Below, piece by piece: positions 35,798 through 55,378 of a stretch of 64,000 bases of DNA. The notes beneath the pieces are model-generated. The model was given only the letters and a program-made list of their open reading frames with translations, was not told where the DNA came from and made no database searches. The stretch is from Henricia sp. BOLD:AAB3569 (lineage: Eukaryota > Echinodermata > Asteroidea > Spinulosida > Echinasteridae), in NCBI GenBank assembly GCA_037783545.1, contig JBBELK010000062.1, forward strand, positions 248,001 to 312,000, in the 5' to 3' direction. The first letter of the stretch is position 1. Each line of letters opens with the position of its first letter. The position numbers were made by a program, and so were the translations under genes.

Positions 35798-36064
35798 CTA
35801 ATTTTCTTTGAGAAAGCGAATACCCCGACACGGTTGAACTACGCCTATTTGTAGCGTTTCCGGGATTTCGTCAATTGTCCAATCAGATCGTAACCCGTGC
35901 CATCACCCGATCAGCCAATAGAGAAAGCGCAGGAAATGCGCTAGTCGTGCGAATGCCGCGGGTGAATGCCTTTGTGGAGCTACCATTTGCATGAAGAAAA
36001 ACTATATGAGTCGGCACTCTGCTGGTGTCATGGTACTCTGGTGATAAAGCCGAAAATCAAAAAC

Positions 36065-36433
36065 ATGGGACCCAAACCAAGCGGAAAGGGATCTAAAAAG
36101 GCTGGCATGGCCAAGGGAGCACCCCGCACCGACAAAAAGAGAAAGCGGCGTAGAAAGGAGAGCTACGGTCTTTACATTTACAAAGTCATGAAACAGGTCC
36201 ACCCTGACACCAGCATCTCCAGCCGTGCCATGGGCATCATGAACAGCTTCGTCAATGACATCTTTGAGCGCATCGCAGCTGAGGGTTCCCGCCTGGCGCA
36301 CTACAACAAAAAATCCACCATCTCCAGTCGGGAGGTGCAGACTGCCGTCCGTCTCCTACTACCTGGCGAGCTGGCCAAACACGCCGTTAGCGAAGGTACC
36401 AAGGCTGTCACCAAGTATACAACCTCAAAGTAG
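36065..36433 (+). CDS. H2B: Histone H2B, unit 16
   Basis: 122 aa, identical to unit 1. Stem-loop at 36447-36462. Confidence 0.97.
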
Positions 36434-37828
36434 AACATCACAAACCGGCTCTTTTCAGAGCCACCACAACCTTCAAAAAGAGATATTTCGTTGAAGCCGT
36501 TTACTTAGCTTTTACTTGGGATACATTGGGATTAAGTTGGGATAAATTAAAGTACAACATACAACTCCGGTGCAGTTATAAGAGGCATGTGTTTTGGGAA
36601 AAATTAATCCGTGTAAATTGGGCATTTGGGTGCCAAACTGTTAAATCTGTTAGAGAAAATGGTACTGAAGCAAGATCCTAGCCTGCGCGCACGCAATCTT
36701 AAGAATCTGCGGTGAACACGGGCGAAAGTTGCCCCAGTTAGACTTTGGGTGGAAGGATAAATGTGGGGCGTGACCGCAGCATGCAAGTAACTGTAGGGGC
36801 GTTCAAGATGCTCACACCGTGTAACAGGGGGTTTGCAACACCGGTGGAATCCCCAGAAGGTGCGAAACAAACGACACATGGTTTCGCATTGAATTATAAG
36901 AACACCGCTAAAAAATTAAGCCGGCGCCACGCAAAAATAGTTGCCTTAAAGTACCGCAATAAACTTTGTCAATGCCCACAGACATCTAATTATTAAGCCC
37001 TATTCCCTATGATTCTGTGTCATAAACCTGTGTTTTTCTTCGCACTCACGTCACGATTCCAAACTGTATGCCAGGTTTTACTAGGTGACGTCATTACACC
37101 GAGCTTTACACCACCGGCAAGCTCGGGTAGTCACTATGAGCAACTAACAATGGAAATTGGGCCCAATGGTTTGTGCCCAATTTCCATTGTTAGTTGCTCA
37201 CAGTGAGTGGTGGCTGCCACCTGCAGTGGGCAGACTCGTGTATTACGTGATGGCTAAACGAACGCTCGGGTGTAAGAACGCCCCTTGTATGAAGCGCGCC
37301 ACCACGGGTTTGGCGCGTAATTACGCTGGCCGGCCGGACTCGATTACACGAGCGTACACTGACATGTCCACGCCCAAGTACACGGAAACTAAATTTTGAG
37401 AAATAATCATAAGATGTTTTTTTTTTTTCGAATTGTTTGCATAGGTTGAGCGGGGCAGGGCTTATGTGACGACCGACTTGTAAATTATTTCCCACGTTGC
37501 TTTAGATTGGGCGCTTTTGGGCTACAAAAATGAACTGAAATGGACATGAATCATTATGGCTGACTCCAGGTTAACCTTTTGACGCTGGAAGACGTTTAAT
37601 CACGCCAGGATTTCCGCGTCGATGTAGCAGAGGACTTAAATTTTGGCTCTTCGTAATTAAATCTGAGCTCTTTGCACAATGAGCATAATATATAAAAGCA
37701 AAATAAATAAAATGTGTAAAAAGTCTGAAAATGATCAAGATAATTTATAAGGCAGACAATCAAATCTCTTTCTTGAAATTGTTGTGGCTCTGAAAAGAGC
37801 CGTTTTTGGTTCGTTAGTAGGTCGACCC

Positions 37829-38227
<399 letters not shown>

Positions 38228-38494
38228 CTAATTTTCTTTGAGAAAGCGAATACCCCGACACGGTTGAACTACGCCTATTTGTAGCGTTTCCGGGATTTCG
38301 TCAATTGTCCAATCAGATCGTAACCCGTGCCATCACCCGATCAGCCAATAGAGAAAGCGCAGGAAATGCGCTAGTCGTGCGAATGCCGCGGGTGAATGCC
38401 TTTGTGGAGCTACCATTTGCATGAAGAAAAACTATATGAGTCGGCACTCTGCTGGTGTCATGGTACTCTGGTGATAAAGCCGAAAATCAAAAAC

Positions 38495-38863
38495 ATGGGA
38501 CCCAAACCAAGCGGAAAGGGATCTAAAAAGGCTGGCATGGCCAAGGGAGCACCCCGCACCGACAAAAAGAGAAAGCGGCGTAGAAAGGAGAGCTACGGTC
38601 TTTACATTTACAAAGTCATGAAACAGGTCCACCCTGACACCAGCATCTCCAGCCGTGCCATGGGCATCATGAACAGCTTCGTCAATGACATCTTTGAGCG
38701 CATCGCAGCTGAGGGTTCCCGCCTGGCGCACTACAACAAAAAATCCACCATCTCCAGTCGGGAGGTGCAGACTGCCGTCCGTCTCCTACTACCTGGCGAG
38801 CTGGCCAAACACGCCGTTAGCGAAGGTACCAAGGCTGTCACCAAGTATACAACCTCAAAGTAG
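38495..38863 (+). CDS. H2B: Histone H2B, unit 17
   Basis: 122 aa, identical to unit 1. Stem-loop at 38877-38892. Confidence 0.97.
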
Positions 38864-40258
38864 AACATCACAAACCGGCTCTTTTCAGAGCCACCACAAC
38901 CTTCAAAAAGAGATATTTCGTTGAAGCCGTTTACTTAGCTTTTACTTGGGATACATTGGGATTAAGTTGGGATAAATTAAAGTACAACATACAACTCCGG
39001 TGCAGTTATAAGAGGCATGTGTTTTGGGAAAAATTAATCCGTGTAAATTGGGCATTTGGGTGCCAAACTGTTAAATCTGTTAGAGAAAATGGTACTGAAG
39101 CAAGATCCTAGCCTGCGCGCACGCAATCTTAAGAATCTGCGGTGAACACGGGCGAAAGTTGCCCCAGTTAGACTTTGGGTGGAAGGATAAATGTGGGGCG
39201 TGACCGCAGCATGCAAGTAACTGTAGGGGCGTTCAAGATGCTCACACCGTGTAACAGGGGGTTTGCAACACCGGGGGAATCCCCAGAAGGTGCGAAACAA
39301 ACGACACATGGTTTCGCATTGAATTATAAGAACACCGCTAACAAATTAAGCCGGCGCCACGCAAAAATAGTTGCCTTAAAGTACCGCAATAAACTTTGTC
39401 AATGCCCACAGACATCTAATTATTAAGCCCTATTCCCTATGATTCTGTGTCATAAACCTGTGTTTTTCTTCGCACTCACGTCACGATTCCAAACTGTATG
39501 CCAGGTTTTACGAGGTGACGTCATTACACCGAGCTTTACACCACCGGCAAGCTCGGGTAGTCACTATGAGCAACTAACAATGGAAATTGGGCCCAATGGT
39601 TTGTGCCCAATTTCCATTGTTAGTTGCTCACAGTGAGTGGTGGCTGCCACCTGCAGTGGGCAGACTCGTGTATTACGTGATGGCTAAACGAACGCTCGGG
39701 TGTAAGAACGCCCCTTGTATGAAGCGCGCCACCACGGGTTTGGCGCGTAATTACGCTGGCCGGCCGGACTCGATTACACGAGCGTACACTGACATGTCCA
39801 CGCCCAAGTACACGGAAACTAAATTTTGAGAAATAATCATAAGATGTTTTTTTTTTTTCGAATTGTTTGCATAGGTTGAGCGGGGCAGGGCTTATGTGAC
39901 GACCGACTTGTAAATTATTTCCCACGTTGCTTTAGATTGGGCGCTTTTGGGCTACAAAAATGAACTGAAATGGACATGAATCATTATGGCTGACTCCAGG
40001 TTAACCTTTTGACGCTGGAAGACGTTTAATCACGCCAGGATTTCCGCGTCGATGTAGCAGAGGACTTAAATTTTGGCTCTTCGTAATTAAATCTGAGCTC
40101 TTTGCACAATGAGCATAATATATAAAAGCAAAATAAATAAAATGTGTAAAAAGTCTGAAAATGATCAAGATAATTTATAAGGCAGACAATCAAATCTCTT
40201 TCTTGAAATTGTTGTGGCTCTGAAAAGAGCCGTTTTTGGTTCGTTAGTAGGTCGACCC

Positions 40259-40780
<522 letters not shown>

Positions 40781-40856
40781 GTAACCTATTTGCACAACGC
40801 CTTTGTTTCCGTCCGACTCCGGCATCTATAGGGTTTAGATATGGGTTAGATGGATT
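40781..40856 (-). repeat. Split direct repeat B2 (outer end)
   Basis: 76 bp, identical to 41125-41200. Starts GTAACC then TATTTGCACAAC on the plus strand. Confidence 0.9.
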
Positions 40857-41062
40857 GAGCATAGAAACCGAAGCCATAGGAAAGCTCAGCAATGAGGAAG
40901 GAGGTCGGGTGGGCGGGGGAAAAAAAGGTATATATATAATAATACTCACCAGAAGCTGGCCGCCGAGGCCAAACTATTATCTTACCACCGTTGAGACATA
41001 CAACCGTATACCGTCCTCTGCCGACTCGTTCCTTCTCGTCCAAATACTCCCCACCTGCCACC
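40857..41062. other. Stretch between repeats A2 and B2 of the element
   Basis: 206 bp without similarity to the rest of the element as far as I can see. Contains a purine/G-rich run (GGGCGGGGGAAAAAAA near 40912-40927) and an alternating TATATATA stretch. No gene. In this family it is part of the 3' terminal region. Confidence 0.7.
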
Positions 41063-41124
41063 TTGGTATACTCGAGACTGCGTAGATTCCTACGCAGCCC
41101 TCAACGTCGGCGGTTGTGCAAATA
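41063..41124 (-). repeat. Split direct repeat A2, with hairpin
   Basis: 62 bp, identical to 50979-51040. Holds a perfect 8-bp stem, CTGCGTAG (41078-41085) and CTACGCAG (41090-41097), with loop ATTC. Confidence 0.9.
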
Positions 41125-41142
41125 GTAACCTATTTGCACAAC
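41113..41142. other. Candidate recombinase crossover site (12-6-12) at the B1/A2 junction
   Basis: GTTGTGCAAATA (41113-41124), spacer GTAACC (41125-41130), then TATTTGCACAAC (41131-41142): perfect 12-bp inverted arms around 6 bp. The layout resembles dif (11-6-11) or loxP (13-8-13). In elements of this type the internal B1-A2 junction equals the joint of the circular DNA intermediate, so this is where the recombinase should act. The two element-host edges each keep one arm. Confidence 0.6.
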
Positions 41143-41200
41143 GCCTTTGTTTCCGTCCGACTCCGGCATCTATAGGGTTTAGATATGGGTTAGATGGATT
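41125..41200 (-). repeat. Split direct repeat B1
   Basis: 76 bp, identical to B2 at 40781-40856, and directly abutting A2. Confidence 0.9.
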
Positions 41201-41456
41201 TCGCCAAAACCTGCCCTCTTAGGCCGCCGAGAACCCCCAAACCTGCCCAAATACACCCCAATCCTTACCCAAACCTCAAACGAAAGCGGGAGACTGTATC
41301 AGATAGAAAGGAAAGAAAAACTGGACTAGTTGTCTTGCTGCCTTTCTTTCATTTTATTTTCTTCTCTTTTCTTTTCTCAAGCTGTCGCTGCCTATAAAAT
41401 TGATTAAAAAACAAAATGGGTAGTTTTGTTAGTAGGTGATGGCATTTTTAGACATA
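41201..41456. other. Element interior, 3' of the recombinase remnant
   Basis: A C-rich stretch (41220-41275) followed by a pyrimidine-rich TTTCTTTTCTC-type run (41335-41380). No gene recognised. Probably the untranslated 3' part of the element. Confidence 0.5.
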
Positions 41457-41723
41457 TCAGCTGCATGTAGATGGCGGGAAAGCTACGCGGGCCCCGAGGC
41501 CCGAGTTCAGACGCCTATAGAATTGTCCGACGATATCTGCCATTGGACTTTGTTCAGCTGTGGAGACGGCGTCGCGTAATACCTGGACCGTGCTCTGACG
41601 CCTCATAACTCTCTCAACCTGGGTATAGTGCTTGTACGTCTTCCGCGACGCCCATTGGCAGTGGTCCATCACCTGCTCGTCCGATGCATCCAGGAGCCGC
41701 AGTGTGGTTGCTACCCATGGCAC
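41457..41723 (-). mobile_element. Tyrosine recombinase remnant (C-terminal catalytic part)
   Basis: The minus strand encodes MDHCQWASRKTYKHYTQ, matching the end of the catalytic domain of tyrosine recombinases: an H-x-x-W followed about 10 residues later by the HY with the nucleophilic tyrosine. Fossil part of the Ngaro-like element; the enzyme would integrate the circular element DNA. Confidence 0.65.
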
Positions 41724-42404
41724 GGCTGTTGTGCGCTCTCAAAAGCTGGTTTTCAGGGTTGTCTGTTGCGGCAAAATACATCTTCAGCCGTGAATTCGGT
41801 CCGTTAACAGGCGAAGGGTTTGTTTACGAGGACTCTGCGATTGGCCGCCAAGGGGCGAAAGATCAACCAGACTTTGAACTGCGCCGACTGGATCCATCTT
41901 TCCTTGGTCCTGCAACTTTGGAATCATTATCAATGATGAGACACCCTCACTTACCGTCTTGCCAATAGTGTGGCTGAATAAAAAATCGCCTCCTTCGATC
42001 CTTGTTATTTTTCAGGTTCCGATTCCTCCTAGGTCACCAGCTCTGTCTCCGGCCCATTATAGGCAGAGGAAAAGGGCCAAGTCTCGTTGTACCACGTAGC
42101 GCTAGGGGAAAAGACCTTCGCCTTTGCCAAGTCTCCAGGATCGGTCAGTTATCTCTTTCACCGACCATCGTAACTTATCAGAAAACAATGGAATTGCCTG
42201 CTTTGAAGTAATGTGAGACTCAGCCTGCTCCAGCTGCATTGCGTTCATGTATCTACGAACTTGGTGAGAGATGCAAGGGTTTGCGAACTTTTATCCCACT
42301 CGCCAGACTTCGGTCTTACCGAATGAGTTAAAGTATGCCCTTATCTGCCCAACATAAGAGTCCACGGTGCATGCCGCTAATATAAGCGGGCACCCACAAG
42401 AGCG
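41724..42404. other. Element interior between recombinase remnant and MITE
   Basis: No intact gene. Upstream parts of the recombinase should lie here on the minus strand, but I cannot recognise them with confidence. Confidence 0.4.
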
Positions 42405-42567
42405 GCGGCCGATTTCACGAAAGAGTGCGCAGCCTGCGCAACTTTTGCAAAATGGCGCAAGCCCTATAGCTTGCGTGTAATTTTCACAGGAATGTTGCGC
42501 AGCCTACGCAATAAAATGTTGCGCAAGCGGACTTACGCAGTGCGTAAGGATTCGTGAAATCGGCCGC
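42405..42567. mobile_element. 163-bp palindromic DNA transposon (MITE) nested in the element
   Basis: Perfect 17-bp terminal inverted repeats: GCGGCCGATTTCACGAA at 42405-42421 and its complement at 42551-42567. The interior is full of TGCGCA/TTGCGCAA motifs forming further partial palindromes. No coding capacity. I could not identify an unambiguous target duplication, so the superfamily is open. It interrupts the retrotransposon remnant between its recombinase and hydrolase parts. Confidence 0.75.
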
Positions 42568-43047
42568 AGATCCCGTGCTTACCCAAATGTTTTCACCCTA
42601 AGCCGTGAATCTGCGTGCGACCTTCTGAGTCACGATCGATCAAAAAGCATATGATGTCAAGTGATGTCACTGACTCCCGATCCTCCCCTTCAGTACAGCA
42701 TCATTTGCTTTGATGCTCCCGCAGAAATCGGTCTAATGCTGCAAATAAGTCTGCTCTTTTGCACTCCATATCCCTCCGTATCCAACTCGTTTCCTAGTTT
42801 TGTCAGCCTGGTTGCCGCACTGATCATCTTCAAAAAGATACCAAAACGCTCTCGTGAAGAAGGGGAGGGCATGATTGAAGAAGAAATTTAGCATTGTATC
42901 GCAATTCCCGAGGGCAAGTCCGAAACGGATCTAAAAACAGCCGCAGCCTGCGCTGGAGCTTAGATATCCCATCATCGATAGGTGCACAATGTCCGCAAGA
43001 TCCTGCTCCACGATGTAATCGTTCGAGAAAAAACTGCCAGCTAGCAT
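42568..43047. other. Element interior downstream of the hydrolase remnant
   Basis: Weakly protein-like on the minus strand near 42830-43047, perhaps the end of the SGNH domain. No intact gene. Confidence 0.35.
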
Positions 43048-43527
43048 TCATGACAGACCTCTTTCAATAATGAGTTGACTACGGCGACTGAGCGATTGAT
43101 GTCCACCATCTTGGTTTGGCACCTTGAGGAAAGAACAAATATGCATATTGGGAATTTTCTCCCTGATCAGTTGGGCAACAGCGCGAAAAACCCTTACCAC
43201 GTCAAGTACACCCTGCGAAGGGTCGGTCAATCGGCTGAAATCATTTATGCCTCCGCGCAGAACAGCCACCTCCGGCTGAAAAGCCCTGCAAGATACCACC
43301 AGATGTCTACATAACGGGGCCATTGTTGTGCCTCCGTTGGCTAACATTTGCACGCTCAATGCCTTGGGCCAGCCGAATCCTTTGAATTCTCTGAACATTG
43401 AGTCGGACACAAGGAGAACATGGTGACGCTTAGCGTAAGCGATATCCATTCGGGGGGTGACAATACGTGGGAAGTAGCACTGGAAGGCCCAGAGCTCAAA
43501 CCCCAGCCCTTGAAAAATTCGGGACAT
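43048..43527 (-). mobile_element. SGNH (GDSL-type) hydrolase-like remnant of the element
   Basis: A 159-residue minus-strand frame shows the SGNH blocks in order: HHVLLVSDSMF (block I with the serine after D), MLANGGTTM (block II glycine) and VLRGGINDFSR (block III, GxND). SGNH hydrolase domains are known passengers of some Ngaro-type elements as well as of CR1/L2 LINEs. The position between reverse transcriptase and recombinase remnants favours the former. Treated as a fossil part. Confidence 0.65.
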
Positions 43528-43670
43528 ATCCCGTAGAAGACGGGTATTCTAAAAACCCCTGCTTGACCTGCCTCTGACAGGCGAAAGGAAGAACTTGAGT
43601 GGAGACCCGTTCCTGCGCGCCGGGACATTTGACGAAAGTGCCATCAAATCAAAGGTGAAAACCTGTGGGA

Positions 43671-43916
43671 CTACCAGATGGGACCTAGGTCAACTTGAGC
43701 GAAAAATTTGCCTCCAAGGAGAGGGCAAAGCAAAAATTTAAACTTCAACATTTTTGAAAGCGGTTTAGACCTAGCTCGGAGGCCAGTCCAAGCATCCACC
43801 ACATTTCTGGAATCTCCAACCACATCCACCATCAAGTTCCATAGCGAATCAAAGACTGAGAGCCACACAAAATATAGATCAAGGGCCTCCTTGCGACACA
43901 TACCCGTGTGTCCCAA
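43671..43916 (-). mobile_element. Possible RNase H remnant of the element
   Basis: A short minus-strand frame with VDVVGDSRNVVDAW, reminiscent of the aspartate-containing core of RNase H, sits between the reverse transcriptase and hydrolase remnants as expected. The similarity is weak. Confidence 0.35.
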
Positions 43917-44134
43917 AATGTCTGCAGACCAGTAATCTCAGAAACTTACACTACCGTCTGGTAAGACTAGGTTACCGCCCTATTTATAGCCAGATGCGTC
44001 TGCCGACAGTGCAATGCGATAGCAAGGTGGCGGCCTTGACTTCAAGGGATCAGCTGCGAGAAGCTATCGACAAACCTCCAAAATAGAATCTCCTCCCGCA
44101 CTTGTGGTGACAGAGGCGTAGGCACGAGATCATA

Positions 44135-45107
44135 TCAAGTGTAGATATGAAGGAGGAGCATTCCCTCAGAAACAAACAAACACCAGAGCAAAACTTTGGC
44201 CTTTGCCCACAAAACGTTGCATCTGTTTTTAGAGCATTTTATCCTCCCGCAAAATTGTCTCTCGTACCTCAGCGAATGATACCTTTTTATGCTCAGGAAT
44301 CGGAAAAGATAGGGTTTGGAGCAGATGCCGAACCCGAGATGCACCATGCTGTTCGATGGCTGCCGATGACTTTTCTTTAAGTTGCTGAACAAGCCGAGCT
44401 TTAACTGTATGTAGCGTACGACGTAAACGGCCCTTAGAGCTCTGATGTAGGAACCGTCCCCATGCATGTCCTGTTCACACCGCAATAAAACAAACACGAG
44501 TGAAGTGTTTTAAACCTTCGTATACTTTTGCCCTCCATCGCTGGGATGGCACTTGCCAATGAAACGGTCGTCTATCCATATTTCTGTATGTATACCTCTG
44601 TTCTTAAGCCATGCAGGAAGACAAAAGCCAATGGATGAGTAAACTTATGCACTGTTTTTTTTTAATTTTTTAAACCAAACCCACTTGAAGCCGGAAAAGG
44701 TTCTGGACTCCTTGGTCAAGAAGATTTGCTTGTATCCCTGGCTGTTGTCGGTACTTGAGAAAATATCGCCTTTGGTTATGGGTCTGACAACATTGCCTAA
44801 AGGTACCAAACTGAAGGGTGTGTCCTTGCGCCAAAGATTAGGTCCCTTCATTGATATAGAAGCAGACTGTCAAGGCAGTCACACATTTCGGCGGCTGTAC
44901 TTCCTTGACCCTACCCACAACGTATATAGAGCCCTCTATCCACCGCCTGGTGATTGTGTCTATGAAAAGGGCGACATAATCTTGACAAATGAGCGCATTT
45001 AAAATACCTTTCGGTGGGCAATTATAAACAGCAATTCCTGCCCCTGTATCTGCCATGAAACGACTGGAAAAATTTATACAGACTAATTCCATGATGAAGC
45101 CAACCAT
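44135..45107 (-). mobile_element. Reverse transcriptase remnant of the element
   Basis: Minus-strand pieces resemble DIRS/Ngaro reverse transcriptase: STDNSQGYKQIFLTKES followed by GFKW (the D..SGY.QI.L...S motif), and further on a KKS...P....HLGF motif. They lie in the right order and upstream of the other remnants. The region is broken in several places. Confidence 0.65.
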
Positions 45108-45544
45108 GAACTTCGTCCCTATTGGGTGACTCTGCTAAGATACCGTCCCAAAGCACCAGGATCATTGCTTAATGTGCCGGCTACAAAAAAGTTGGATCTC
45201 TGAATCCGAGCGCCTATAAATCTACCTGTAGTCTACCAGAGAGAACCTCAGGCGGGGTGGGTGTAAAGGGGACTGGCAAGCCACTTGGTTTGCCATTGAA
45301 AATTACCCACTGGGAGGTGCCTCGTTTCCGCTTCGCTGCGTGCGTAGCGATGGGATCAAAGATTGATCAAAATCTCTCACACAGATGACTCTCCAGCATT
45401 TTCAAATACCACTGGTACTCAATGGTACTGGTTGGTTTTTTTTTTATTTTTTTTATTTTTAGCAAAACTTTGCGAACGGGGTACTTGAACTTTGGGATTC
45501 ACAAAATGGCACAAAGAGGTGCCCCTGGACCACATTCAAATCAG
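45108..45544. other. Element interior upstream of the reverse transcriptase remnant
   Basis: No gene recognised. A T-rich run lies at 45435-45462. A TCGCTGCGTGCGTAGCGA imperfect palindrome is near 45333-45350. Confidence 0.5.
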
Positions 45545-46555
45545 CGTGCTAGCGAAGGCCCATCAACATGGCATACAGAGGCCCGCCCTCTGCCGGGTAC
45601 AGAGTACATATATGCGAAATAGAAGTACACTGTACCCCAAACATGGCATTCAGAGGCCCGTCCTCTGCCAAATACAGAGTATGCGAAATAGAAGCACATT
45701 GTACCACAAACATGGCATTCAGAGGCCCATCCTCTGCCAAGTATAGCGCGCATATGTGCAAAATAGAAGTACATTGTACCACAAACACGGCATTCAGAGG
45801 CCCGTCCTCTGCCAAGTACATTTGTACTTTAAACATAGCATTCAGAGGCCCGTCCTCTGCCAAGTACATTTGTACCATAAACATATAGCATTCAGAGGCC
45901 CGTCCTCTGCCAAGTACATTGCACCATAAACATAGCACTCAGAGGCCCGTCCTCTGCCAAGTACATTTGTACCATAAACATATAGCATTCAGAGGCCCGT
46001 CCTCTGCCAAGTACATTGCACCATAAACATAGCATTCAGAGGCCCGTCCTCTGCCAAGTACATTTGTACCACAAACATAGCATTCAGAGGCCCGTCCTCT
46101 GCCAAGTACATTGCACCATAAACATAGCGTTCAGAGGCCCGTCCTCTGGCAAGTACATTTGTACCTTAAACATAGCACTCAGAGGCCCGTCCTCTGCCAG
46201 GTACATTTGTACCACAAACATAGCATTCAGAGGCCCGTCCTCTGCCAAGTACATTGCACCATAAACATAGCGTTTAGAGGCCCGTCCTCTGGCAAGTACA
46301 TTTGTACCTTAAACATAGCATTCAGAGGCCCGTCCTCTGCCAAGTATATTGCACTATAAACATAGCACTCAGAGGCCCGTCCTCTGCCAAGTACATTGCA
46401 CCATAAACATAGCATTCAGAGGCCCGTCCTCTGCCAAGTACATTTGTACCATAAACATAGCATTCAGAGGCCCGTCCTCTGGCAAGTACATTGCACCATA
46501 AACATAGCATTCAGAGGCCCGTCCTCTGCCAAGTACATTTGCACCATGAACTGGC
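45545..46555. repeat. Minisatellite, 47-50 bp unit, about 19 copies
   Basis: Tandem copies of a unit of the form AACATAGCATTCAGAGGC, CCGTCCTCTGCCAAGTACAT, plus TTGTACCA or TGCACCA. Each contains the small hairpin AGAGG-CCCGT-CCTCT. From about 45,795 the period switches between about 47 and 50 bp with two linker types (TTTGTACC and TTGCACC) often alternating. A 143-bp higher-order repeat is visible at 46130 and 46273. The first three copies are longer (67-77 bp). Frames through it are not coding. Confidence 0.9.
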
Positions 46556-47040
46556 GCGTATCTGCTCGCTGAGCTCCGTGACCCTACGCTCAGCGCAGGA
46601 AAATGACACGGAAAACAGCCCCTCACTGCGAACTTTTGTGAGTACATAAAAAAAGTACGTCTATGTTTCTCCCCAACTCGCTATGCATTTCAAAGTACAG
46701 AGTATTACCTTTAGTTTGGTTATTATTTCATAAAATATATGATGCACGGGGAAAAGGGGCTTTTTTCACTCAAAGAACAGGTGTTGAACCTCAAAATCGG
46801 CAAAGTCAATGGAGGTCAACACGATTACTGATCATTTTTCAGTAGGTTGTCTCACTGAATTGAACGGCACGGTCGTTCTCTGTGACACACAGATTCAACT
46901 CGCACTTATGAATAAACTACATAAAATTCCCGTCCCACTCATATATGAAACATTTTGATTGGACAAGGGGAAAAGGGGCTTTTTTGCTTCAAATCATAGA
47001 ATGTCTCTCATCTAAGACCGTGACCCGATTGTAATACGCA
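46556..47040. other. Spacer between minisatellite and its decayed copies
   Basis: No gene. A 19-bp sequence, GGGGAAAAGGGGCTTTTTT, occurs twice about 220 bp apart (46748 and 46968). Confidence 0.55.
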
Positions 47041-48340
47041 AAATATGGTTACATTGCACATGTACCATAAGCCTGGCATTCAGAGGCACGCCCTCAGCCT
47101 GGTACCGAGTACACATGCAAATCAAGGGTACATTCATACAGAGGCCCGCCCTCTGTGTATCGCACCTGCAATATAAATGCTCATCAAAGTTGCACTGCCT
47201 TTTTTTTTTTTTAGGGTAAAATAGGTAACTTTCCCGAATAGAAAAAGTTATCAGCCCCCACTTGGCACCAAGAACGTAAAAAATCCGTCAAGGACCAACG
47301 CCAGTCGATCAAAAACAAGAAACGACCAAATGGCTGGCAGGTCACCCAATCGACAGGGCCATGACGCAAATGCACATGTGCGCGCACATGTGCACATTGC
47401 ACACACACCATGTACATACGAGCGCACGCGCACATGCACAACATGAAAAGCACGTTTCAAGAAAAAGGGCCTGCATCTCCAACTCCCGCCGTCGGAAACT
47501 TAAGTTTTTGATATTTTCCGTTACAGAGACACGTAAGCTTTATAAATTCGTTCGCTTGTGTAAATTAATTTTTATTTTTAATCCTTTCACTGAAACACGG
47601 GCAATGCGACTTTAAGCTTGGTGTCCCGAGGCCCGTCCTCTAGCACACACGCCATTTATGGGTATATTACACTTGACATACAGGGACCCGTCTGTGCCTA
47701 GTACCTGTATCTATACACATAGAAAACATGGGCACATTAAAATTTGGCATTCATAAAATTGATTTTTATTGAAATTTTGAATTCAGAGACCCGTCCTCTG
47801 CCTATGTACACGCCCTTATGTACCAATACCAAATAAGAGCGCATATTAATAGGGATACGCTAATTCAGAGGTCGGCTGTCTAGTAAAGGGTACCCATGCC
47901 AAAATTAGCGTCACATCAGAACTTGGCATCTCAACTTGGCATTTAGAGGCCCTCCTCTGCCTAGTACACATGCAAGCTATGAGCATATTAAACTTGGCAT
48001 TGGGAGGCCCGCCCTCTATCTAGTATATAGAGTACGTGGGCAATATTTACTCGGTCCGTCCTCTGTCTAGTACCGAGTACATGTGGAATATGTATTACCA
48101 CTTAGTATTCAGAGGCCCGATCTCGGCAAGTACACATGTAATCTATGGGTACTTTGAACTTGCCCTTTAGAGGCCCGTCCTCGGCCTATACAGATTCTGA
48201 CTGGGGTTATGACGAAACTTTAAGTATTGTCAAGCCAAACCCCCAGTGCATCTATGCTTGCTGCCTAATGGCGACACATATCTATCATTCAGTATAATTG
48301 ACGTGCTCACGAACAAGAGCATAGCGTTCAGAGGCCCATG
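47041..48340. repeat. Decayed, spread-out copies of the minisatellite motif
   Basis: About ten degenerate copies of GGCATTCAGAGGCCCGYCCTCTGCCTAGTAC, 50-150 bp apart, for example near 47080, 47140, 47630, 47790, 47945, 48005, 48110, 48170 and 48330. They look like the eroded flank of the tandem array. Includes the palindrome at 47371-47394 listed separately. Confidence 0.7.
47371..47394. repeat. 24-bp perfect palindrome in an alternating CA/CG tract
   Basis: TGCACATGTGCG followed by its exact complement, within a purine-pyrimidine alternating tract (47371-47440). Z-DNA or cruciform prone. Confidence 0.85.
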
Positions 48341-49430
48341 CTCTGCCTCCTCGAAGGAACTGGAAATTGAGACATGGGCTATTTCACAATAAGTGTACAC
48401 TTTCAGTCTCACTGGCAAATCGGGGTAAAATTTCAAACTTGTCCAACTCACAAAAGTTTGTTGATCTAAAAACTTCAGGATGTATACTAATAATTCAAAA
48501 AATATCAGAGCGTGGCATTATGATTAACGTGTTTTTTTTTTTTGTTTTTTTGTTTTTTTTTTTTTTTTACTGAAATAATAATTTGTAATTGGTTGTCTGG
48601 AGAGGACATTTTGTTAAACACAGAATATCACAATATAATGGCCAGACTAAATGTTGAAATGGTAATGCCATGCACTGTCCTGTTAGAAGGAATGGTACTG
48701 TTAATTTTACAAACCTAACAACGAAATATTTCAATCATGGTTGACATGTTATATTACAATTGAATGCTGTCCTGGAGAGGACAAATGTTTAACGGATTTT
48801 CCACAACCCTGAATATGATCTTGATAAAATTTACTCAAATCTCTTCCACGATCAAATTGTCATATTTACTCCATCAAATGTGTCATGTGATGATACAAAC
48901 ATCTTTGTGAGTACATATCTCCAAACTATTCCATTGTGTGGAATACCTTGACCTGGAGAGGACATTACCATATTTTGTTTGTTTGTTTGTTTGTTTGTTT
49001 TTTTTGTTGACCGAATTACACCAACCCAAGTTTCACAATATTGTTGAACACTATATATCCATGATTGATCACCAAATGATCACCACAATAATGCATCATC
49101 AACAAATGATTGCACTTAAACTAATGCAAAACTTGAAATGAGACTCCAAAATGGTGTTAAAAGTGCATGTAAATAGAGAAATTAAAAACGAATAACTCGT
49201 AGAATTATGTAAAAATAGTTCTGTAGCTTGTCCTTCATATTACCCGTCATATAAAATCACTCATAACATGTATATGCACTGATAAAGTTATCCAGGATGG
49301 GTTAAACTGTAATCTACTCAAATGACCACCCACTGTGAAATAGCCCACATGTACTCAGGGACCAGTCCTGGTCCATAGAAATACGATCTAGGCCTTGATA
49401 CTCGGAAGCCCAACCCGTGCTTCGTAAATT
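48341..49430. other. AT-rich stretch with three CTGGAGAGGACA copies
   Basis: No gene. CTGGAGAGGACA recurs near 48597, 48772 and 48951, about 175-180 bp apart, suggesting a diverged tandem repeat. Poly-T runs lie at 48531-48570 and a TTTG microsatellite at 48975-48995. Confidence 0.6.
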
Positions 49431-50149
49431 GCCTAACAAAAGATGCGCTTAAACTGCGCGTTTGGGGGCCCGTCCTCCACTTCATACATTTAGTAAGCAA
49501 GAGTCCATTCACTTGCCACTTAGGGCCTGTTCCATTACCTATGAGGGCGCTAACACAGGTACCTTGAAACAAAAGGCCAGAACCAGATTTCCCAAATGCT
49601 AGGCTGACTCCTTTTTTATTGTTATATTGCGCTCGCTATACATGCTCGAGCAATAACAAAACAAGAATTGTGAGGGCACTTTCCGAACTACGAATCTTAA
49701 AAGAGGCCCGCCCTCTATCATCTAACGAACCTGCCAAACTGGTATTTTAATTCCCATGATTCAAGGGCGTGCCCCGTTTATAAACATGCTAGCATTGCAC
49801 CCTGAGCCTTGTTTACCCGTTGGAGCATTCGCTCCAGATCTCGGCGTTGTCCTCCATATAGATCCATAGGACGCCAAGGTGAACAAATTCTCCCTCCAGC
49901 GGTCTTCCAGACCTTGCCATTGGTCGATGTCTTGCCAACCATCCTTGGCATCCGCCGTTTCCTATAGGGAGCACGAAAAAAGCAACAAAGAAAGTTGAAA
50001 TTTCGGAAACTGTTTGTGTAAACGCCAATTATCGAAAACATTTCACCTGCCCATGCCTTCTCCGACCCACGCTGTACCTTGGCCGCCTGGCTCCATGAAA
50101 AGGCGGAGAAAAGCACGGTTTCGGAGACGCGTGTGTTAAACTGCCCTTA

Positions 50150-50186
<37 letters not shown>

Positions 50187-50978
50187 GTTATAATGCGTAC
50201 TTGTGCATGGTGGGCTTAGTAGCCCAAACTTAATTAAAGAGTCGTATGCATTTGTATACGTACAAAATATTTGGCTGTATACCTGTATACCTGTCGAATG
50301 ACTGGGCCCCCGTCGCCACACGGGTGATACCTATAAAATACGAGCCTGAGACTACTAGGCCTAATTCGCCATATTTATGGGCCTGACGGATGTTTTACCA
50401 AAACTGAATAATATATTATGACATATAAAGCATTGAAGCAATTCGTACCTCAACTAAGGCGTAAATCATGTCCATCTTCAGCACATTCAGCAAACGAGTA
50501 CATGTAGTTGGAAACTTGTCCGGTACATAAAACACGACGAGGCAGCATAACCCGCACACAGCATATTGGCACTATAGCCTATAATACACACGCAAGCCCA
50601 ATGAGGGGTGCATTGCTTAAGGCACGCGAAAATTCAAAGGGAATTACTGGAGCGCGCTCTACCATTGTTGAGAAAGAGCCAATTTGACTATGTACGTACG
50701 TGTAGGCTTACCCAACGTAGTGCCAACCATGCGTGCGGTAACGGCGATTGCTTGAAGCTGCGTAATGATACTGGTGCGCGGTGCTGCCCACACCTCGCAA
50801 ATGTTTAAATGCCTATAAATTACTCTGGTTACCTGATTTCGCCTTACAAAACATCCCAAACTCGACGCTAGGTAACACACTGCTGCACTTTCATTTTCCT
50901 CGAAATATATCAGCTAATGGATGATAATTCAAAACCATTGATTATCCCGAGCGATCACACACACGTCCACCCGACGGG
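49431..50978. other. 5' part of the element: no recognisable gene
   Basis: Contains two more decayed minisatellite copies (near 49465 and 49700) and a poly-T run of about 31 at 50152-50182. A 112-codon minus-strand frame (49778-50116) matches nothing I know, and I do not call it a gene. In the expected layout, gag would lie in this half of the element. Confidence 0.45.
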
Positions 50979-51040
50979 TTGGTATACTCGAGACTGCGTA
51001 GATTCCTACGCAGCCCTCAACGTCGGCGGTTGTGCAAATA
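50979..51040 (-). repeat. Split direct repeat A1 (outer end), with hairpin
   Basis: 62 bp, identical to A2, including the CTGCGTAG/CTACGCAG hairpin (50994-51013). Ends TTGTGCAAATA directly against host GAGAAAG. Confidence 0.9.
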
Positions 51041-51184
51041 GAGAAAGCGCAGGAAATGCGCTAGTCGTGCGAATGCCGCGGGTGAATGCCTTTGTGGAGC
51101 TACCATTTGCATGAAGAAAAACTATATGAGTCGGCACTCTGCTGGTGTCATGGTACTCTGGTGATAAAGCCGAAAATCAAAAAC
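51041..51184 (+). promoter_or_regulatory. H2B half of the split unit 18 promoter
   Basis: Keeps the octamer (51105-51112) and the TATATG box, but both CCAAT boxes are now beyond the 10.26-kb insertion. Confidence 0.85.
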
Positions 51185-51553
51185 ATGGGACCCAAACCAA
51201 GCGGAAAGGGATCTAAAAAGGCTGGCATGGCCAAGGGAGCACCCCGCACCGACAAAAAGAGAAAGCGGCGTAGAAAGGAGAGCTACGGTCTTTACATTTA
51301 CAAAGTCATGAAACAGGTCCACCCTGACACCAGCATCTCCAGCCGTGCCATGGGCATCATGAACAGCTTCGTCAATGACATCTTTGAGCGCATCGCAGCT
51401 GAGGGTTCCCGCCTGGCGCACTACAACAAAAAATCCACCATCTCCAGTCGGGAGGTGCAGACTGCCGTCCGTCTCCTACTACCTGGCGAGCTGGCCAAAC
51501 ACGCCGTTAGCGAAGGTACCAAGGCTGTCACCAAGTATACAACCTCAAAGTAG
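51185..51553 (+). CDS. H2B: Histone H2B, unit 18 (separated from its H2A)
   Basis: 122 aa, identical to unit 1, so the gene has not drifted since the insertion or has been corrected by conversion. Stem-loop at 51567-51582. Confidence 0.97.
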
Positions 51554-52948
51554 AACATCACAAACCGGCTCTTTTCAGAGCCACCACAACCTTCAAAAAG
51601 AGATATTTCGTTGAAGCCGTTTACTTAGCTTTTACTTGGGATACATTGGGATTAAGTTGGGATAAATTAAAGTACAACATACAACTCCGGTGCAGTTATA
51701 AGAGGCATGTGTTTTGGGAAAAATTAATCCGTGTAAATTGGGCATTTGGGTGCCAAACTGTTAAATCTGTTAGAGAAAATGGTACTGAAGCAAGATCCTA
51801 GCCTGCGCGCACGCAATCTTAAGAATCTGCGGTGAACACGGGCGAAAGTTGCCCCAGTTAGACTTTGGGTGGAAGGATAAATGTGGGGCGTGACCGCAGC
51901 ATGCAAGTAACTGTAGGGGCGTTCAAGATGCTCACACCGTGTAACAGGGGGTTTGCAACACCGGGGGAATCCCCAGAAGGTGCGAAACAAACGACACATG
52001 GTTTCGCATTGAATTATAAGAACACCGCTAAAAAATTAAGCCGGCGCCACGCAAAAAATAGTTGCCTTAAAGTACCGCAATAAACTTTGTCAATGCCCAC
52101 AGACATCTAATTATTAAGCCCTATTCCCTATGATTCTGTGTCATAAACCTGTGTTTTTCTTCGCACTCACGTCACGATTCCAAACTGTATGCCAGGTTTT
52201 ACTAGGTGACGTCATTACACCGAGCTTTACACCACCGGCAAGCTCGGGTAGTCACTATGAGCAACTAACAATGGAAATTGGGCCCAATGGTTTGTGCCCA
52301 ATTTCCATTGTTAGTTGCTCACAGTGAGTGGTGGCTGCCACCTGCAGTGGGCAGACTCGTGTATTACGTGATGGCTAAACGAACGCTCGGGTGTAAGAAC
52401 GCCCCTTGTATGAAGCGCGCCACCACGGGTTTGGCGCGTAATTACGCTGGCCGGCCGGACTCGATTACACGAGCGTACACTGACATGTCCACGCCCAAGT
52501 ACACGGAAACTAAATTTTGAGAAATAATCATAAGATGTTTTTTTTTTTCGAATTGTTTGCATAGGTTGAGCGGGGCAGGGCTTATGTGACGACCGACTTG
52601 TAAATTATTTCCCACGTTGCTTTAGATTGGGCGCTTTTGGGCTACAAAAATGAACTGAAATGGACATGAATCATTATGGCTGACTCCAGGTTAACCTTTT
52701 GACGCTGGAAGACGTTTAATCACGCCAGGATTTCCGCGTCGATGTAGCAGAGGACTTAAATTTTGGCTCTTCGTAATTAAATCTGAGCTCTTTGCACAAT
52801 GAGCATAATATATAAAAGCAAAATAAATAAAATGTGTAAAAAGTCTGAAAATGATCAAGATAATTTATAAGGCAGACAATCAAATCTCTTTCTTGAAATT
52901 GTTGTGGCTCTGAAAAGAGCCGTTTTTGGTTCGTTAGTAGGTCGACCC

Positions 52949-53347
<399 letters not shown>

Positions 53348-53614
53348 CTAATTTTCTTTGAGAAAGCGAATACCCCGACACGGTTGAACTACGCCTATTT
53401 GTAGCGTTTCCGGGATTTCGTCAATTGTCCAATCAGATCGTAACCCGTGCCATCACCCGATCAGCCAATAGAGAAAGCGCAGGAAATGCGCTAGTCGTGC
53501 GAATGCCGCGGGTGAATGCCTTTGTGGAGCTACCATTTGCATGAAGAAAAACTATATGAGTCGGCACTCTGCTGGTGTCATGGTACTCTGGTGATAAAGC
53601 CGAAAATCAAAAAC

Positions 53615-53983
53615 ATGGGACCCAAACCAAGCGGAAAGGGATCTAAAAAGGCTGGCATGGCCAAGGGAGCACCCCGCACCGACAAAAAGAGAAAGCGGCG
53701 TAGAAAGGAGAGCTACGGTCTTTACATTTACAAAGTCATGAAACAGGTCCACCCTGACACCAGCATCTCCAGCCGTGCCATGGGCATCATGAACAGCTTC
53801 GTCAATGACATCTTTGAGCGCATCGCAGCTGAGGGTTCCCGCCTGGCGCACTACAACAAAAAATCCACCATCTCCAGTCGGGAGGTGCAGACTGCCGTCC
53901 GTCTCCTACTACCTGGCGAGCTGGCCAAACACGCCGTTAGCGAAGGTACCAAGGCTGTCACCAAGTATACAACCTCAAAGTAG
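53615..53983 (+). CDS. H2B: Histone H2B, unit 19
   Basis: 122 aa, identical to unit 1. Stem-loop at 53997-54012. Confidence 0.97.
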
Positions 53984-55378
53984 AACATCACAAACCGGCT
54001 CTTTTCAGAGCCACCACAACCTTCAAAAAGAGATATTTCGTTGAAGCCGTTTACTTAGCTTTTACTTGGGATACATTGGGATTAAGTTGGGATAAATTAA
54101 AGTACAACATACAACTCCGGTGCAGTTATAAGAGGCATGTGTTTTGGGAAAAATTAATCCGTGTAAATTGGGCATTTGGGTGCCAAACTGTTAAATCTGT
54201 TAGAGAAAATGGTACTGAAGCAAGATCCTAGCCTGCGCGCACGCAATCTTAAGAATCTGCGGTGAACACGGGCGAAAGTTGCCCCAGTTAGACTTTGGGT
54301 GGAAGGATAAATGTGGGGCGTGACCGCAGCATGCAAGTAACTGTAGGGGCGTTCAAGATGCTCACACCGTGTAACAGGGGGTTTGCAACACCGGGGGAAT
54401 CCCCAGAAGGTGCGAAACAAACGACACATGGTTTCGCATTGAATTATAAGAACACCGCTAAAAAATTAAGCCGGCGCCACGCAAAAATAGTTGCCTTAAA
54501 GTACCGCAATAAACTTTGTCAATGCCCACAGACATCTAATTATTAAGCCCTATTCCCTATGATTCTGTGTCATAAACCTGTGTTTTTCTTCGCACTCACG
54601 TCACGATTCCAAACTGTATGCCAGGTTTTACTAGGTGACGTCATTACACCGAGCTTTACACCACCGGCAAGCTCGGGTAGTCACTATGAGCAACTAACAA
54701 TGGAAATTGGGCCCAATGGTTTGTGCCCAATTTCCATTGTTAGTTGCTCACAGTGAGTGGTGGCTGCCACCTGCAGTGGGCAGACTCGTGTATTACGTGA
54801 TGGCTAAACGAACGCTCGGGTGTAAGAACGCCCCTTGTATGAAGCGCGCCACCACGGGTTTGGCGCGTAATTACGCTGGCCGGCCGGACTCGATTACACG
54901 AGCGTACACTGACATGTCCACGCCCAAGTACACGGAAACTAAATTTTGAGAAATAATCATAAGATGTTTTTTTTTTTTCGAATTGTTTGCATAGGTTGAG
55001 CGGGGCAGGGCTTATGTGACGACCGACTTGTAAATTATTTCCCACGTTGCTTTAGATTGGGCGCTTTTGGGCTACAAAAATGAACTGAAATGGACATGAA
55101 TCATTATGGCTGACTCCAGGTTAACCTTTTGACGCTGGAAGACGTTTAATCACGCCAGGATTTCCGCGTCGATGTAGCAGAGGACTTAAATTTTGGCTCT
55201 TCGTAATTAAATCTGAGCTCTTTGCACAATGAGCATAATATATAAAAGCAAAATAAATAAAATGTGTAAAAAGTCTGAAAATGATCAAGATAATTTATAA
55301 GGCAGACAATCAAATCTCTTTCTTGAAATTGTTGTGGCTCTGAAAAGAGCCGTTTTTGGTTCGTTAGTAGGTCGACCC

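Follow-up and report, generated by a model that had tools for sequence, protein, structure and literature searches.

In the sea star Henricia sp., a palindromic joint inside a decayed retrotransposon is probably the core recombination site of a family of Ngaro-like tyrosine-recombinase (YR) retrotransposons, whose members would insert by exchange of a single strand with YR provided in trans. The joint occupies 41113..41142 on the plus strand of the window, the whole 64,000-nucleotide stretch of contig JBBELK010000062.1 that we analysed, where a sequence scan found the internal repeats A2 and B1 meeting as perfect 12-bp arms around the 6-bp spacer GTAACC (41125..41130, plus strand); the same 30-mer is present elsewhere in the genome. 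The window holds four copies of the arm sequence TATTTGCACAAC, at 40787-40798 (+), 41113-41124 (-), 41131-41142 (+) and 51029-51040 (-); shuffled versions of the window held a mean of 0.70 occurrences at one mismatch, and four were reached in 0 of 100 shuffles. The A2/B1 joint is the sole place within the window where perfect 12-bp arms stand 6 bp apart. Because the outer spacer bases G and C of G-TAAC-C pair as well, the perfect palindrome is 13-4-13, GTTGTGCAAATAG TAAC CTATTTGCACAAC. The first-pass annotation of this DNA had described a 12-6-12 site at the joint and a single arm at each outer edge (40787-40798 and 51029-51040). Its coordinates are exact in both cases, as are the perfect arms and the spacer, but the symmetry extends further than it stated, to 13-4-13 and in one subfamily to 17-4-17.

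Across 30 loci, the window copy counted among them, contiguous arms measure 13 bp in 25 and 17 bp in 5. The predicted fold of the window copy adds three further pairs beyond one bulged G; the subfamily (L007, L013, L015, L023 and L025) has one extra C beside the arm, which eliminates this bulge to give a perfect 17-4-17 joint and is present in both B repeats wherever B2 was located (4 of 5). The A2/B1 strand is predicted to fold far more strongly than shuffled sequence (z=-6.6). A strong hairpin at the joint would suit a single-stranded substrate, but an inverted site in double-stranded DNA predicts the same equally.

Divergent H2A/H2B units repeat in tandem across the window with a main period of 2,430 bp; histone 3′ stem-loops are present in the scanned part (18 kb, 36000-54000), and the window's open reading frames of at least 100 amino acids include no other histone. 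One unit is split between the H2A and H2B reading frames by a 10,260-bp insertion (40781..51040, minus strand), the whole element, whose limits and lack of a target duplication are defined by empty histone units and by the empty sites of other copies. Comparison with intact units places the empty target in a neighbouring unit at 38339..38362 (plus strand), where GCCAATA^GAGAAAG spans 38350^38351; the insertion point between H2A and H2B is a CCAAT-like motif. About 211 kb past the window's joint on the same contig, another family copy (L011 and L034) occupies the same kind of histone unit, at that unit's near-perfect 36-bp hairpin. Loci L083 and L084 on contig C257 carry the window's insertion at the same histone site with 99.95% identity over 2 kb, and represent either the other haplotype or a duplication.

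Read along the minus strand, which also carries its coding remnants, the element consists of A1 (50979..51040), the body, B1 (41125..41200), A2 (41063..41124), a unique 206-bp linker (40857..41062) and B2 (40781..40856), all delimited by repeat comparison and, at the outer edges, by the empty units and for B2 also by the edges of other copies. A1 ends in the arm GTTGTGCAAATA with a host G next at 51041, and B2 starts with GTAACC TATTTGCACAAC. Exact repetition covers 80 bp between B1 and B2 (41121-41200 = 40777-40856) and 63 bp between A2 and A1 (41063-41125 = 50979-51041), extents in which, at the outer edges, the first 4 bp on the B2 side and the last base on the A1 side belong to the host. 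The body holds, in order, a reverse transcriptase (RT) remnant (44648..45134) and an RNase H-like remnant (43674..43937), both recognized by reading the frames by eye and without a Pfam match; an SGNH/GDSL hydrolase remnant (43051..43548; PF13472, E=5.8e-4, under the gathering score); and YR remnants comprising an N-terminal core-binding piece (42294..42503), which matches ALOG_dom at E=4.2e-5, also under the gathering score, and LSH3 chain 8p5q at E=0.0026, and the remaining YR (41460..42290), read by eye as broken pieces at 42105-42290, 41787-42011 and 41460-41738 with no Pfam match; all of these lie on the minus strand. ALOG domains, we assume, derive from DIRS-type YRs. The repeat layout and the weak hydrolase and ALOG matches, both under the Pfam cut-off, support the identification of the element, on sequence grounds, as a decayed Ngaro-like YR retrotransposon with split direct repeats. 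This agrees with the first-pass annotation, whose proposed tyrosine recombinase remnant fits the sub-cut-off ALOG_dom match on the N-terminal piece. PHROGs returned only weak matches of unknown function (E 0.05 to 0.55), and scans found no relatives in viral contigs. A repeat scan also revealed an unstranded 48/75-bp minisatellite within the element (45565..46551), built on a 48-bp repeat with the motif AGAGGCCCGTCCTCT and with worn copies further on, inside a region common to the window copy and the four long copies compared.

Searching the 740.7-Mb assembly for the 30-mer joint at up to three mismatches gave 180 places (90 forward and 90 reverse), the 100 places listed all being exact, and 0 for the reversed control. 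We fetched 104 targeted stretches and 30 loci of 3 kb, one of them (L010) the copy in the window, and sought edges in 68 copies including the window (A1 in 68, B2 in 67), locating B2 edges through sequence outside the arm and spacer. Every B2 edge found (65 of 65) passes from host directly into GTAACC and then TATTTGCACAAC; 58 of the 59 A1 edges found end in GTTGTGCAAATA, that is, in CAAATA followed immediately by host, the odd one (L070) ending in AAATT. The search came up empty for two B2 and nine A1 edges. Beyond the A1 edge the first host base is G in 56 of 58, the exceptions being A in L046 and T in L104. Arms and arm–spacer boundary are constant among these copies and flanks vary, the pattern that the annotation had named as the mark of a genuine site. 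Because nearly all of the 68 copies sampled from the 180 tallied places were entered via an exact joint, conservation of the internal spacer is partly due to this selection of copies, and that of the edges is not. B1 equals B2 exactly in 28 of 29 copies (the window's own included) and A1 equals A2 in 24 of 24 further copies, with variants shared by both repeats of a pair, and such identical pairs with shared variants are as expected if the ends were copied from the joint. Copies are about 96-99% identical across long stretches.

Empty sites locate the point of exchange. For 56 copies we joined the two flanks and searched for them in just the window and the fetched loci, and 20 matched across the join, including six independent exact sites (L004, L011, the window, L095, L105 and L115) that align over 100/100 bp free of gaps, and L101 at 99%; the remaining matches either were partial or gapped, or fell in diverged repeats or in the flank of the copy itself. 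In the six exact sites zero bases are duplicated or lost, the G on the A1 side being the host's and the G on the B2 side the element's. Constant B2 and A1 edges together with these gap-free sites place the crossover at a single bond, A^G, where the left arm meets the 6-bp spacer (41124^41125 in the window), in line with edge, target and empty-site comparisons alike. The crossover site proposed by the annotation therefore holds for the arm–spacer boundary, which is constant across copies, and has to be narrowed to the spacer's left boundary, the only one seen as a crossover point. An overlap symmetric about the palindrome centre was rejected, as 0 of the edges found had the crossover at the right side of the spacer.

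Host flanks at these edges contain recognizable half-sites. After removal of duplicate or near-duplicate targets (L083, L107 and L131), 62 left and 55 right flanks were scored as z against a base-composition background with bases assumed independent. The left flank is dominated by A at -1, T at -2 and A at -3, and GCAAATA directly left of the crossover reaches z=13.6, the next best of 30 offsets being 2.4. Among the 55 deduplicated right edges, +1 is G in 96% and +2 is T in 62%; the overlap from +3 to +6 agrees with AACC in 29, 25, 35 and 25%, approximately chance; and TATTTGC scores best at +8 (z=5.5, next 2.6 of 40 offsets), with z=3.5 for the full 12-bp arm. Other offsets near the crossover fall as low as z=-3.7 for short motifs and -4.4 for the 12-bp arm. 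A pattern barring T at +2 matched 66 places, with G at +1 in 64 and T in 1, the last (C366) being a worn internal joint, and provided 31 further A1 edges with distinct flanks (38 before dropping repeats of the same first 25 bases), some of them in related repeats. These carry G at +1 in 31 of 31 and again score best, if weakly, at +8 (z=2.3 versus 2.0 at +7). Pooling yields 86 edges with G at +1 in 84 and z=5.8 at +8 versus 0.7 at +7, the motif at +8 ranking 1 among 210 motif permutations. From half-site matches at fixed offsets in the host flanks, targets are, as judged by their sequence, worn and degenerate copies of the core site. Their half-sites are probably 7 bp apart compared with 6 in the joint, a spacing drawn from the first 55 edges; taken by themselves, the extra 31 do not distinguish 6 from 7. 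Constant edges and targets that themselves resemble the site fit the defined recombinase core site for the family that had been suggested from the window.

Inheritance of the spacer is one-sided. The element's spacer lies on the B2 side in 53 of 53 deduplicated copies with both edges, and in all of them the target spacer differs from GTAACC, by a mean of 3.3 of 6 bases; under 50:50 segregation the chance of this outcome is about 1e-16. On either strand, YR cleavage falls at the overlap's 5′ end, and the observed crossover, A^GTAACC on the window plus strand, corresponds to a plus-strand cut. A two-strand exchange with a mismatched overlap would leave both edges as heteroduplex, and replication should then segregate it in either direction. 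Two features expected of one-strand exchange, a single crossover bond and a spacer inherited on one side, are observed, and we infer a one-strand exchange of the plus strand because the spacer is on the B2 side in every informative copy despite mismatched overlaps. In the pathway that we propose, circularisation of the cDNA would bring B2 and A1 together in a joint with the same sequence as the internal one between B1 and A2, and this internal joint would be the template or keeper of the circle joint. In joint and target alike, YR supplied in trans by another element would cut at A^G on the strand antisense to the genes (first-strand cDNA polarity) and exchange this single strand. At the far side of the spacer the enzyme would not exchange the second strand, leaving replication to resolve the junction, or else the joint may be single-stranded or gapped on the other strand; the 6-versus-7 spacing mismatch would itself hinder a second exchange. 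The expected product is host...A^GTAACC...element...CAAATA^G...host, with the spacer fixed on the B2 side. That YR retrotransposons of this kind integrate by single-strand exchange with first-strand cDNA polarity at a palindromic joint, resolved by replication in an integron-like pathway of an animal retroelement, is a possibility that we advance tentatively; if true, cDNA could integrate before, or without, full second-strand synthesis.

An ordinary two-strand YR exchange of a double-stranded circle, with a 6-7 bp overlap whose heteroduplex is always repaired toward the same strand, would give similar products, and we consider it rather unlikely. Biased mismatch repair after such an exchange could imitate the one-sidedness of the spacer, and the published DIRS-1 model, in the available portion of its description, has a double-stranded circle and does not require one-strand exchange (PMC5633606). 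The repair bias would nevertheless be needed, unexplained, in 53 of 53 informative copies, and it would have to operate on overlaps that match the element from +3 to +6 at about chance and on pooled targets with half-sites spaced 7 bp instead of the joint's 6, even though 12-13 bp arms with a 6-bp spacer are typical of YR sites (11-13 and 6-8 bp in the accessible text of PMC3212892) and both half-sites are visible in the targets. It is very improbable, and already disfavoured, that the inverted arms are incidental to some unrelated function, such as an RNA hairpin or transcription signal, with the edges set by some other integration mechanism: folding of the joint strand at z=-6.6 makes a hairpin role possible, but a factor reading the arms in DNA best accounts for the likeness of host targets to both arms at fixed offsets, and the six exact empty sites are without target duplication. 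A chance palindrome in a single copy, for which we found nothing in favour, has next to no probability and is refuted by the genome-wide tally of 180 such sites and by edges that fall at one and the same base.

One-strand exchange at the core site would probably be carried out by an enzyme from outside the copies themselves. Across the 30 loci including the window, the stops that end the open YR pieces are present at 42102 and 41739 in 30 of 30, at 42012 in 29 and at 42291 in 28, and four stops in the RT/RNase H part recur in 4 of 4 copies for which this part was fetched. The 62-amino-acid YR piece lies in a frame of just 62 amino acids in 144 of 150 scored matches and of 77 to 133 in the other 6. 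Because the YR stops are common to nearly all copies compared, the family probably spread after its genes had died, with enzymes supplied in trans from elsewhere. It appears to have multiplied as a retroelement whose YR frames were already dead and whose terminal and internal repeats are still identical. No helper element was found among the 150 of 293 YR-piece candidates scored, and those listed are 97-100% identical to the family.

Integration without target duplication is a trait of YR retrotransposons, and the window and other empty sites display it. Split direct repeats, a Ngaro trait, are seen in the window, as a B1/B2 pair in 29 loci and as an A1/A2 pair in 24 further copies. The order A1-[ORFs]-B1A2B2 and, in some elements, an SGNH hydrolase are described for Ngaro in the accessible parts of two reports (PMC9210276, PMC8547959). 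By the same sources, the Henricia element differs in being 10.2 kb long compared with about 6 kb in Cafeteria elements (PMC8547959) and in having its hydrolase remnant before YR in transcription order, whereas the hydrolase follows YR in amphibians (PMC9210276); it further differs in its 206-bp linker between A2 and B2 and in stops shared by nearly all copies compared. DIRS1 likewise keeps a circle junction inside the element and is proposed, in the text available, to recombine at a short target-shared sequence without duplication (PMC3266345), but it has inverted terminal repeats and a 3-bp junction in place of split direct repeats and a palindromic 30-bp joint. A DIRS1-like identity was rejected, as the ends are direct repeats of internal repeats and inverted terminal repeats with internal complementary regions are absent. 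Ngaro elements place RT/RNase H upstream of YR, an order that in the Henricia element is read by eye apart from the N-terminal YR piece, and they lack the methyltransferase of DIRS and PAT. PAT elements would fit the split direct repeats, and no methyltransferase was seen among the 10 translated pieces scanned, whose frames are decayed. A Crypton, a YR-only DNA transposon with no long direct repeats, is inconsistent with split direct repeats of 63 and 80 bp.

As a site, the joint resembles loxP, dif and other YR core sites, described in part of one source as inverted arms of 11-13 bp around 6-8 bp (PMC3212892), but differs from them in its degenerate targets and in having only one spacer boundary seen as a crossover point. 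The proposed one-strand YR exchange is a likeness to integron attC x attI recombination and to Vibrio strand-biased elements (SE). In the passages available, integron integrases act on folded single strands and need replicative resolution (PMC4792948), and 6 bp tends to one side after SE integration (PMC9345347). These are bacterial DNA elements without reverse transcription, and we do not claim membership for the Henricia family. Split direct repeats with a hydrolase for Ngaro, and the circle idea and lack of duplication for DIRS1, are already known from the accessible text of earlier reports (PMC9210276, PMC8547959, PMC4157794, PMC3266345). The literature searched, which covers few subscription journals and in part only excerpts, describes neither strand bias nor a palindromic core site for Ngaro elements. 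As far as searched, it is apparently new for a Ngaro-like family to have its core site defined to the base together with a target motif, and so is the one-sided inheritance of the spacer. The DIRS-1 mechanism is not fully proven according to the available text of a review (PMC5633606), and insertion of YR retrotransposons has so far been mostly a paper model. Core site, target motif and strong asymmetry are readable from one genome, and the strand-exchange question is therefore directly testable.

Rearranged and recurrent copies were also seen. Twenty of the A1 edges for which no joint was listed some 10 kb off were examined as candidate solo 344-bp A2-B2 units, and none proved to be one: 18 are ordinary A1 ends, L149 is an internal joint with AG lost and L152 is an inversion. 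In L152 and L155 (contig C570, 764100-765050), A2, linker and B2 are inverted exactly between the arms with both spacers in place, which is what a recombinase or a crossover between short arms would produce. Contigs C490, C100, C757 and C96 carry several A1 edges with common flanks or near-regular recurrence, on C490 about every 343-358 kb, which suggests duplications or assembly repeats.
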